Below are positions 398-4,468 of a stretch of DNA of 36,482 nt, in pieces. The stretch comes from Sebaldella sp. (lineage in GTDB: Bacteria; Fusobacteriota; Fusobacteriia; Fusobacteriales; Leptotrichiaceae). Under the pieces are notes generated by a model. It was given only the letters and a program-made list of their open reading frames with translations, made no database searches and had not been told where the DNA came from. Within the stretch, counting starts at the first letter, position 1; every line of letters starts with the position of its first letter. Location of the stretch: contig JAGOZX010000027.1 in NCBI GenBank assembly GCA_018058425.1, positions 1-36,482 of the forward strand, written 5' to 3'. Position numbers and translations under genes: made by a program.

Positions 398-426
398 TTT
401 ACTAATTATTAAAAAAGTTATATACT
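398..426 (+). promoter_or_regulatory. Candidate promoter for the Met-rich leader and met operon
   Basis: TTTACT (398-403), a 17-nt spacer and TATACT (421-426). It would start transcription near 433, about 35 nt upstream of the small Met-rich frame. It is the best plus-strand promoter between the tRNA and metN. The -10 also forms one arm of a 6-bp inverted repeat (421-426/435-440). Confidence 0.45.
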
Positions 427-467
427 TCCTTTGTAGTATAAAAAAATTATTAAAAGGAGTGAGTCAA

Positions 468-617
468 ATGTCAAAGTTATTCTTTAGTTTTATAACAGTA
501 AATATGATGTCTATGTTAATGTGTATGATGATGATGCACAATTTTTCGTATTTAAAAATAAAACAGAGAATAAAAAAAAGATATTTACTTATTCATTCAT
601 ATAATAAAATAATATAA
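468..617 (+). CDS. Met-rich 49-aa leader peptide, or small membrane protein
   Basis: A 49-codon frame with a near-ideal ribosome binding site (AAGGAG, 8 nt before ATG). Residues 13-23 read MMSMLMCMMMM, that is eight Met in eleven codons (ATG codons between 504 and 536). The first 25 residues are hydrophobic and the rest is Lys/Arg-rich. It stands upstream of a strong terminator and of a methionine ABC transporter operon. Two readings are possible. (a) A leader peptide whose translation reports charged tRNA-Met and controls the terminator, by analogy with the trp, his and ilv leaders. (b) A small membrane protein with one transmembrane helix. The frame and its position are seen; the regulatory role is inference. 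I recognise no family. Confidence 0.6.
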   Translation: MSKLFFSFITVNMMSMLMCMMMMHNFSYLKIKQRIKKRYLLIHSYNKII

Positions 618-646
618 ACTAAATTAAAGCATGTAAAATTTAGTTT
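616..646 (+). other. Inverted repeat overlapping the leader stop codon
   Basis: Ten-bp A/T-rich arms (616-625 and 637-646, AAACTAAATT and its complement) with an 11-nt loop. The left arm begins within the TAA of the Met-rich frame, so a ribosome at the stop codon would cover it. This is what is expected of an RNA switch element, but the stem has few G-C pairs and could be chance in AT-rich DNA. Confidence 0.35.
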
Positions 647-656
647 TGAATGATAA

Positions 657-694
657 TAAAAAAATACTTTAGAATTTTCTGAAGTATTTTTTTT
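657..694 (+). terminator. Strong intrinsic terminator between the leader frame and metN (candidate attenuator)
   Basis: A 16-bp stem (658-673 with 678-693; one G-U pair) with a 4-nt loop; its 3' arm ends in eight T. Only 26 nt separate it from the metN Shine-Dalgarno. A promoter between them would start transcription at or inside the ribosome binding site. So metN is probably reached by read-through, which makes this terminator conditional (inference). Confidence 0.75.
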
Positions 695-735
695 ATTTAT
701 ACCTACAGCGTACAATATCTGAAAGGAGCATAAAC

Positions 736-2431: not shown

Positions 2432-3259
2432 ATGAAAAATAGAAACTTTAGAACGGTAATATTATCTTTAATCACAATATTTATTTTAGGAGTACTTACA
2501 ACAAGCTGTGGTTCAGATTCAAGTAAAAAAATAAAAGTAGGAATAACTGGGTCAAATTCAAAGGAATGGGAATATGTTAAGCAAGAAGCTGCTAAAAAGG
2601 GAATTAAATTAGAAATTGTATATTTTTCTGACTATGTTCAACCAAATAGAGCACTTATTGATAAAGAGTTAGATATCAATGCTTTCCAAACTGTTTCATT
2701 TTTAAATACATTTAATGAAAATAATAAACAAAATATTGTACCAATAGCCACTACTGTTTTAGCTCCAATGGGAATATATTCTAAAAACTTAAAATCTATT
2801 GACGAATTACCAGATAAAGCAAAAGTTACTATTCCAAACGATCCTTCTAATCAAGGAAGAGCATTAAAATTACTTGAAAAAGCTGGTTTAATTAAACTAA
2901 AAGAAGGTAATAAAATTCTAACTAATAATGATATCATTGAAAATAAAAAGCAACTAGAAATTATACCTCTTGCTGCGAATCAACTTCCACAAACATTAAA
3001 TGATGTTTCTATATCAGTTATTAATAATGGTGTAGCTGTAGATGCAGGATTTGCTTTAAGCCAAGCTATCTATAAAGAAGATCACTTAGCAAAAGACTAT
3101 ATTAATGTTATTGTTGCAAGACAAGATAATAAGGATAACGCCGCTCTACTTGAAATAGTAAAATTATTCCAAACTGATGGAGTAAAAAAAGTAATTGAAT
3201 CTGAAACAAAGGGAAATTCAATTCCTACATTTGTACCATTATCAGAAATCGGATTTTAA
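2432..3259 (+). CDS. metQ: MetQ methionine-binding lipoprotein (NLPA family)
   Basis: Substrate-binding lipoprotein that delivers methionine to MetNI from the periplasmic side. A type II signal peptide (basic MKNRNFR, hydrophobic core) ends at the acylated Cys26 in the box LTTSC, slightly unusual because Thr rather than Leu stands at -3. The mature part has the NLPA-family pattern: IKVGITGSNSKEWEYVK, then FSDYVQPNRAL, DINAFQT and IPNDPSNQGRALKLLEKAGLI. Length 275 aa is typical. A good Shine-Dalgarno AGGAGG stands upstream. A 41-nt gap separates it from metI without a terminator, so it is cotranscribed. Confidence 0.92.
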   Translation: MKNRNFRTVILSLITIFILGVLTTSCGSDSSKKIKVGITGSNSKEWEYVKQEAAKKGIKLEIVYFSDYVQPNRALIDKELDINAFQTVSFLNTFNENNKQNIVPIATTVLAPMGIYSKNLKSIDELPDKAKVTIPNDPSNQGRALKLLEKAGLIKLKEGNKILTNNDIIENKKQLEIIPLAANQLPQTLNDVSISVINNGVAVDAGFALSQAIYKEDHLAKDYINVIVARQDNKDNAALLEIVKLFQTDGVKKVIESETKGNSIPTFVPLSEIGF

Positions 3260-3289
3260 ATAAAAAAAGTAAAAAGAATGGAGAAATTT

Positions 3290-4468
3290 ATGTCAGAATT
3301 ACAAATAAAAAAAGATAAATTAATTAATTTTATTGATAAAAATAAGGATAAATGGGTACATGCTTCAAAATCTATACATGCTAAACCAGAATTAGGTAAT
3401 CAAGAATTTTTTGCTCAAAAAACACTTGGAAAATTATTAGAAGACTCAAATTTTTCTGTACAATATAATATTGTGAGCCATGAAACAGGTTTTATTGCGA
3501 GAAAGAGTTCTTCTAAAACTGGTCCCAAAATTGCTTTTTTAGCAGAATATGATGCTCTTCCAGATATTGGACATGGTTGTGGTCATAATTTAATAGGCTT
3601 AGGAAGTGTAGGAGCTGGAATTGCCATTGGAGAAATTATAGAAGAGCTTGGCGGAGAAGTTATAGTTTTTGGAACACCTGCTGAAGAAGGTGGAGATAAT
3701 GGAAGTGCCAAAGCTACTTATGTTAATGAAGGGCTATTCAATGATATCGATGCCGCTCTTATGTTTCATCCTAGCAATAAAGACAGTATTACTCAAAGTT
3801 CTCAAAGTGTAGAACCTATAGACATTGAATTCTTTGGACAGACAGCACATGCTGCTGGCAATCCAGAAAAGGGTATAAATGCGCTTCATGCATTGATTCA
3901 TTTTTATAATATTTTACACACTTACCAATTAAGTAAATTTAAAAATTTAAATATCCATGGTGTAATATTAGATGGAGGAAAAGCTGCTAATGTAATACCT
4001 GATTATGCTAGAGCAAGATTTTATGTAAGAGGAAAAACTTCTGGGGAAAGTCTTGAAGCAGTTGAGATAATCAAAGATATCCTAGATGGAATTAATAAAA
4101 CTTTTGGTACTACATCAAAACTTACATATTTTCAAAATAGAGTTGATCATTTTATATTAACTCCAAAATTTGATAAATTATTTGAAAAAGTTTATGAAGA
4201 TTATACAGGAAATAAAATAGAGACTGCTCAAGTAAAAGCTGGCGGTTCCACAGATGCTGCAAATGTAAGCCACGTTATCCCTGTTATTCACCCATATCTT
4301 TCTATTGGTGGAGAATCATTAGTTGGACACACTACAGAATTTACAGAAGCCTCATGTTCTGAAAAAGGATTTGATACACTTATTTTAGGGATAAAACTCT
4401 TGAGCTTAACAGCTTTAGAACTCTATGAAAATAAAGAACTACTTGAAGATATTAAAGGAGAAAGGTAG
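3290..4468 (+). CDS. M20D-family metal-dependent amidohydrolase / N-acyl amino acid hydrolase
   Basis: About 392 aa, of the M20D group (AbgB, IAA-amino-acid hydrolase and PatA-like proteins). Metal site motifs are visible: AEYDALPDIGHGCGHN with the M20D cysteine, EEGGDNGSAK with the catalytic Glu pair, a His in MFHPS, and GGSTDAANVSHVIP near the end. The dimerisation insert includes GQTAHAAGNPEKGINAL. I prefer the second ATG because GGAG stands 6 nt before it; an in-frame ATG 12 nt upstream has only a weak ribosome site. As last gene of the methionine uptake operon it may release methionine, or a related amino acid, from imported N-acyl or peptide conjugates. That is inference from context; the family is clear but the substrate is not. 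Confidence 0.85.
   Translation: MSELQIKKDKLINFIDKNKDKWVHASKSIHAKPELGNQEFFAQKTLGKLLEDSNFSVQYNIVSHETGFIARKSSSKTGPKIAFLAEYDALPDIGHGCGHNLIGLGSVGAGIAIGEIIEELGGEVIVFGTPAEEGGDNGSAKATYVNEGLFNDIDAALMFHPSNKDSITQSSQSVEPIDIEFFGQTAHAAGNPEKGINALHALIHFYNILHTYQLSKFKNLNIHGVILDGGKAANVIPDYARARFYVRGKTSGESLEAVEIIKDILDGINKTFGTTSKLTYFQNRVDHFILTPKFDKLFEKVYEDYTGNKIETAQVKAGGSTDAANVSHVIPVIHPYLSIGGESLVGHTTEFTEASCSEKGFDTLILGIKLLSLTALELYENKELLEDIKGER

Follow-up and report, generated by a model that had tools for sequence, protein, structure and literature searches.

The metNIQ locus and its leader region

The window analysed here, by which the whole stretch of 36,482 nucleotides is meant, comes from a Sebaldella-like bacterium of the Leptotrichiaceae and not from a Fusobacterium, as the original prediction had implied. 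Its first gene is a minus-strand tRNA-Leu gene, and on the plus strand it carries the methionine importer operon metNIQ preceded by a structured leader. The product of metN (736-1743) is a methionine ABC transporter ATPase with a NIL domain (TIGR02314, 3.8e-108, below the curated cut-off of the model; NIL, 9e-18), that of metI (1740-2390) is the permease (MetI model, 6.6e-49, again below the curated cut-off) and that of metQ (2432-3259) is a lipoprotein of the NlpA/MetQ family (Lipoprotein_9, 2e-77). The gene after metQ (3278-4468), assigned by a protein-family match, encodes an M20-family amidohydrolase, and the same gene order is found in both congeners described below and at a further locus, L229.

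Upstream of metN, and likewise on the plus strand, lie a promoter-like sequence at 398-426 that matches the consensus (TTTACT, a spacer of 17 nt and TATACT), a Shine-Dalgarno (SD) sequence AGGAG at 455-459 and an open reading frame (ORF) of 49 codons at 468-617, MSKLFFSFITVNMMSMLMCMMMMHNFSYLKIKQRIKKRYLLIHSYNKII, which the list of open reading frames gives with an upstream GTG at 459. Codons 13, 14, 16, 18, 20, 21, 22 and 23 of this leader ORF are AUG, and the resulting run of eight Met codons in 11 (504-536) is the putative sensor of the system. When 433-735 was shuffled 10,000 times with dinucleotide frequencies preserved, the maximum in any frame was five AUG in 11 codons, reached once, and no second site with at least five AUG in 11 codons occurs on either strand of the 36-kb window. 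The leader peptide has no protein-family match.

An inverted repeat, AAACTAAATT/AATTTAGTTT, begins in the stop codon of the leader ORF (616-646; arms 616-625/637-646), and behind it stands an intrinsic-type terminator at 658-694, composed of a 16-bp stem (658-673/678-693) and a tract of 8 U extending to 694, with a folding energy of -14.7 kcal/mol and a z score of -6.2 against shuffled sequences. This terminator is not listed by the pattern scanner because that scanner demands at least three G-C pairs. The promoter-like element, the 49-codon frame with its good SD and eight ATG, the inverted repeat at the stop codon and the 16-bp stem before metN had all been read from the sequence in the original prediction, and each is present as described there. 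The Rfam search of 200-760 returned no match at E<=1, which excludes SAM riboswitches and T-boxes at this level of sensitivity, in agreement with the earlier statement that motifs of SAM riboswitches, T-boxes and SMK boxes are lacking here.

Conservation within the genus

Counterparts of the leader were found in two congeners, Sebaldella termitidis (L002, genome G003) and a second genome of the genus (L003, genome G001), which are closely related to each other and form with the window a set of three sequences, family A. Both congeners display the promoter TTGACT-17-TATATT at the aligned position, a conserved AGGAG, an ORF of 47 or 50 codons and a nearly identical terminator. The peptide of S. 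termitidis is 63% identical to that of the window over 42 residues, and the number of Met codons is eight in the window and in each congener in spite of codon insertions between them. The alignment proposed in the original prediction thus finds Met runs that are kept while flanking residues vary, together with a conserved terminator. When Met-run leaders were sought by motif at other sites in the genus, chance matches swamped the result.

Just 3' of the Met run, the stretch AGAGAATAAAAAAA(A)GATATTT is kept at the nucleotide level across a length difference (A8 or A7) that shifts the reading frame, which points to a constraint on the RNA, as judged from the three sequences, rather than on the tail of the peptide. 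The inverted repeat that begins in the stop codon, real as it is in the window, is absent from the congeners in an alignment with S. termitidis and L003. In family A, duplexes with exchanged partners showed no clear covariation, and its members were folded singly since a pair count based on MAFFT misplaced the A8/A7 indel.

The terminator and the start of metN are 41 nt apart in the window and 25-26 nt apart in S. termitidis and L003, which makes a promoter in that interval very unlikely; metNIQ would therefore be reached by read-through, as the original prediction had argued from the lack of room.

Alternative pairings of the leader RNA

Folding predicts three mutually exclusive pairings, a leader hairpin (1:2), an antiterminator (2:3) and the terminator (3:4). 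Region 1 (457-507) is the 5' half of the leader RNA, including the SD and start codon, and region 2 (546-599) is the 3' half of the leader ORF. Together they form a hairpin (456-600) of -36.4 kcal/mol with a z score of -5.4, unmatched by any shuffle, through the helices 457-464:587-594, 466-472:580-586, 477-485:565-573, 487-493:558-564 and 499-507:546-554; the corresponding hairpins of the congeners fold likewise, with z scores of -3.4 and -4.6. The Met run sits in the apical part of this hairpin (457-507 with 546-594), and the outer helix (457-472) covers the SD and start codon of the leader itself.

The strand 580-594 is common to the 1:2 hairpin, where it pairs with 457-472, and to the antiterminator (577-670), which forms when region 1 is masked and in which 577-599 is paired with 647-670, including the 5' arm of the terminator. 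The predicted helices of this alternative are 577-580:667-670, 582-586:662-666, 589-592:656-659 and 593-599:647-653, with the inverted repeat (616-625:637-646) as the inner part. The original prediction had found no strong antiterminator by eye, a view that the pairing 577-599:647-670 corrects, and had offered instead the A-run at 572-579 with the U-run of the terminator, a candidate rejected here because the fold ensemble prefers 577-599:647-670. A second candidate spotted by eye, CAGAGAAU (564-571) with AUUUUCUG (674-681), is ignored by the folds and was dropped.

Simulated ribosome positions and the proposed mechanism

The effect of a ribosome, represented as masked RNA, was simulated in transcripts ending just after the 5' arm and loop of the terminator, and was expressed as the share of the terminator 5' arm that is held by upstream RNA. 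The values for a stalled ribosome, a ribosome at the stop codon and no ribosome were 0.65, 0.24 and 0.18 in the window, 0.64, 0.24 and 0.20 in S. termitidis and 0.65, 0.07 and 0.07 in L003, compared with 0.62, 0.16 and 0.16 for a control, the Escherichia coli trpL leader (its sequence taken from general knowledge), in an identical pipeline. Folding with and without a ribosome, the check named in the original prediction, thus returned a trp-like signature. When the region from the Met run to the terminator was shuffled, the observed difference was attained by 1 of 60 sequences for the window and by none of 60 for S. termitidis. With the full terminator present, equilibrium folding favours termination in every ribosome state; like that of trp, the switch therefore has to work kinetically.

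A lone stalled ribosome with free upstream RNA leaves the antiterminator unformed in these simulations (0.07-0.21), where the outer 1:2 helix can re-form around the ribosome, and sequestration returns to 0.64-0.65 once an initiating ribosome is placed on the start codon. As modelled, then, the Sebaldella type of leader switches only with a second ribosome, or some other masking of the start site, beside the stalled one. The first Met codon of the run is 36 nt from the start, roughly one ribosome length, a spacing that fits a pair of stalled and initiating ribosomes. Because the antiterminator strand otherwise covers the SD and start codon of the leader, the switch probably senses ribosome loading in addition to stalling.

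The features by which an attenuator is recognised in sequence, namely a leader ORF with an SD, a run of cognate codons, a terminator, an antiterminator and a protector, are all found in silico, and we consider it quite probable, from sequence comparison and modelled folds, that the region is a ribosome-mediated transcription attenuator that stands before metNIQ and senses charged tRNA-Met in the manner of trp. The attenuation proposed originally is backed by the kept Met runs, by convergent leaders before metN in other lineages (see below) and by the mutually exclusive folds, and a response to methionine is its prediction. With charged elongator tRNA-Met plentiful, a ribosome would pass the Met run and reach the stop codon, or would never load; the two halves of the leader would pair (1:2), the terminator 5' arm would be free, and RNA polymerase would stop at about 694. 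With Met-tRNA scarce, a ribosome would stall in the Met run (504-536) with the next ribosome at the start codon, region 1 would be masked, region 2 would take the terminator 5' arm, and polymerase would read into metNIQ. Severe methionine starvation should also lower the charging of initiator tRNA and hence initiation on the leader, opposing the signal.

Met-run leaders and SAM-I riboswitches across the Fusobacteriota

Methionine control is usually credited to SAM riboswitches, T-boxes or repressors, and SAM-I riboswitches lie before metN at many loci of the Fusobacteriaceae. Of the 108 fusobacterial regions upstream of metN that were searched, 27 contain a Met-run ORF, defined by at least three AUG within six codons no more than 350 nt from metN, where shuffled sequences would lead one to expect 0.53; no SAM-I motif is recognisable in any of the 27. 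These leaders fall into families that share no peptide sequence, each followed by a terminator. Family A is that of the genus Sebaldella, family B comprises nine loci of the MTNYNLISKTTMMNMMPMGVGTKN type and family C five loci of the MRNFEFRQLNMMMMLWKGL type, and families D and E are represented by MINKVVTFKMNMMHM, MKYTTTFMMMHMYT, MNNYALTLMMMYMCR and similar peptides, beside which is listed a singleton, MKNLVVVNVMMMHT, in L024. The peptides outside Sebaldella are 11-25 residues long and unrelated, with the Met run alone in common.

In a tree of MetN, families A, B, C and D+E (L024 left out) occupy separate, well-supported clades, and B groups with loci bearing SAM-I (100/100), as does C (95/90). 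Since unrelated families lie on separate clades, the Met-run device appears from these sequences to have arisen several times, and some of these origins fall in lineages with relatives that have SAM-I at this position. The only SAM-I found in the Sebaldella genomes (G000, G001 and G003) lies just upstream of metK (G000:C63:11464-11551, L223, in the genome of the window), so that SAM and methionine would be sensed by different devices. In the nine genomes that carry families D and E (G006, G007, G008, G010, G015, G016, G017, G020 and G023), no SAM-I scored above threshold. The SAM-I (S-box) leaders of fusobacterial metNIQ resemble that of Sebaldella in operon, position and a terminator just before metN, but they sense SAM through an aptamer, whereas the Sebaldella metNIQ leader is without one and the genus retains SAM-I at metK.

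The structural evidence differs among these families. In D and E, the codons that precede the Met run are complementary to a segment ahead of the terminator, with mean duplex energies of -14.2 kcal/mol for cognate partners and -5.8 kcal/mol for swapped ones. The antiterminator strand GCGUGUGCC has, as judged by eye, three possible partners: the Met codons when no ribosome is present, GGUACA when a ribosome is at the stop codon and the terminator 5' arm GGCACAC at stall. Stalling raised the sequestration of the terminator arm in nine of ten D/E members, the effect in L092 being small; the exception is L098 of family D, for which the metric fails. In family C, a candidate antiterminator GUCUGCC:GGUAGAC reads GUUUGCC:GGCAAAC in L060, a compensatory change seen by inspection. 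The trp-validated metric does not discriminate ribosome states in family B, and its discrimination in family C is weak or inconsistent; as the switching of these families is not reproduced, we draw no conclusion about the RNA structure of either.

Two other loci of the phylum deserve mention. In L228 (G040), metNIQ under a family-B leader is followed by a gene that, by eye, encodes an MsrA-like peptide methionine sulfoxide reductase. In L076 (Leptotrichiaceae, G018), metN is preceded by a terminator and, at a distance of about 270 nt, by a short ORF encoding MKRFREAMCMS that may be a Met/Cys leader.

Alternative explanations

The leader ORF might instead encode a small stand-alone protein, Met-rich and membrane-associated or metal-binding, with a transcript that ends at the terminator and with metNIQ supplied by basal read-through. 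A good SD, a hydrophobic and Met-rich N-terminal half and a length of 47-50 residues, unusual for a leader peptide, would suit such a product, but the ORF is confined to this genus and, there, to the site directly before metN, its C-terminal part shifts frame at the A8/A7 run while the nucleotides are kept, and the shorter, unrelated peptides of other lineages hold only the Met run in common with it. Conservation of the peptide away from metNIQ, which the original prediction had named as evidence against itself, was looked for across the phylum and is absent, with nothing above noise beyond the metN upstream sites of this genus in 98 genomes; a stand-alone protein is thus highly improbable. 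Little better can be said of an undescribed ligand-binding RNA (for methionine or SAM, for example) or an RNA-binding protein that would control termination with the ORF as an incidental feature. The strong structure of the leader RNA (z of -5.4) and the presence of SAM-I riboswitches at this site in many Fusobacteriaceae would be in keeping with it, but no Rfam match was obtained at E<=1, and the structure varies among families while the Met run recurs, the reverse of what is expected of an aptamer, which would be conserved and would have no need of a Met run. We judge this explanation very unlikely.

A third possibility retains the Met-run ORF and places its action elsewhere, in translational or Rho-dependent attenuation, such that a stall would uncover either the ribosome-binding site of metN or a rut site. 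The metL leader of Streptomyces lividans, which has no intrinsic terminator (PMC8079986), offers a precedent, and the A-U-rich stem in Sebaldella is one that a GC-based scanner leaves unlisted. Against this stand the 16-bp hairpin and 8-U tract kept in three species and an antiterminator that specifically captures the terminator 5' arm, and such a mode of action seems as improbable as the other two.

Comparison with known leaders

Methionine is, to our knowledge, missing from the usual catalogue of attenuators (trp, his, leu, thr, ilv and phe). The enterobacterial systems share with the Sebaldella leader a run of cognate codons, a protector, an antiterminator and an intrinsic terminator. They differ in that the cognate amino acid of Sebaldella is methionine, which is also the initiator, and the target is an importer; in that the Sebaldella hairpin is built from the two halves of the ORF, including the SD and start codon of the leader; and in that, as modelled, switching requires a further ribosome to follow the stalled one.

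Leaders with Met codons before methionine genes have been predicted in Campylobacter jejuni, where MetL, a peptide of 20 residues with three Met codons, lies upstream of metBA and attenuation was proposed (PMC3847290), its translation being supported by start-site peaks in Ribo-seq (PMC11955535), and where CJsORF19 (MMYQMR) precedes the gene for a D-Met transport binding protein (PMC11955535). These belong to another phylum and encode other peptides, the Met run of Sebaldella being denser (8 in 11), and the passages devoted to them describe short RNAs ending behind the ORF and give no alternative structures. In Streptomyces lividans, a predicted Met leader peptide, metL, stands before the same operon, metNIQ (PMC8079986), but it is leaderless, its Met codons are scattered and no intrinsic terminator was found there. 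Compared from their published descriptions, the Campylobacter and Streptomyces leaders bear no apparent similarity to that of Sebaldella. The keyword-matched portions of a broad survey of premature terminators mention neither a Met leader nor Fusobacteria (PMC2965389), and no published Met leader of the Fusobacteriota was found in literature lying mostly outside subscription journals.

Leaders beyond the Fusobacteriota

Met-run leaders were also found at five of 80 metN loci outside the Fusobacteriota, in Chryseobacterium (L150), an uncultured member of the Peptostreptococcaceae (L157), Slackia piriformis (L179), Christensenella (L185) and Lacrimispora (L191). The count excludes L116 (Paenibacillus), a match discarded for lying inside an apparent upstream M20-type gene. 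The five leaders are situated about 140-370 nt upstream of metN and are partly Cys-rich; a hairpin-T terminator stands between leader and metN at four of the five, and those tested have no match in Rfam.

It is conceivable, though we hold it only tentatively and at somewhat less than even chance, that Met attenuators are an overlooked, widespread and convergent class, with at least four origins in the Fusobacteriota at the site of SAM-I and others in Clostridia, Bacteroidota and Actinomycetota, of which the Sebaldella type would be gated by two ribosomes, its antiterminator strand competing with the initiating ribosome for the leader start. Met leaders as such are already known from the earlier predictions in Campylobacter and Streptomyces; what would be new is the hairpin of ORF halves over its own start site, the duality of initiator and elongator methionine, and the recurrence at the SAM-I site. 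The Sebaldella genome appears to sense SAM for metK and methionine, as charged tRNA, for the importer, and the leader raises the question of how a sensor can be built on the amino acid needed to start its own translation. That unrelated Met-run leaders recur at a single locus, where related lineages have SAM-I, amounts to a natural experiment on the ease with which attenuators arise.

A further locus was noted in Chryseobacterium sp. FP211-J200 (L186), where an ORF with Cys codons (MLKFCFVCCS) and a hairpin-T terminator lie about 140 nt upstream of metN; this may be a Cys attenuator, which would suggest that the transporter of this organism handles cyst(e)ine.
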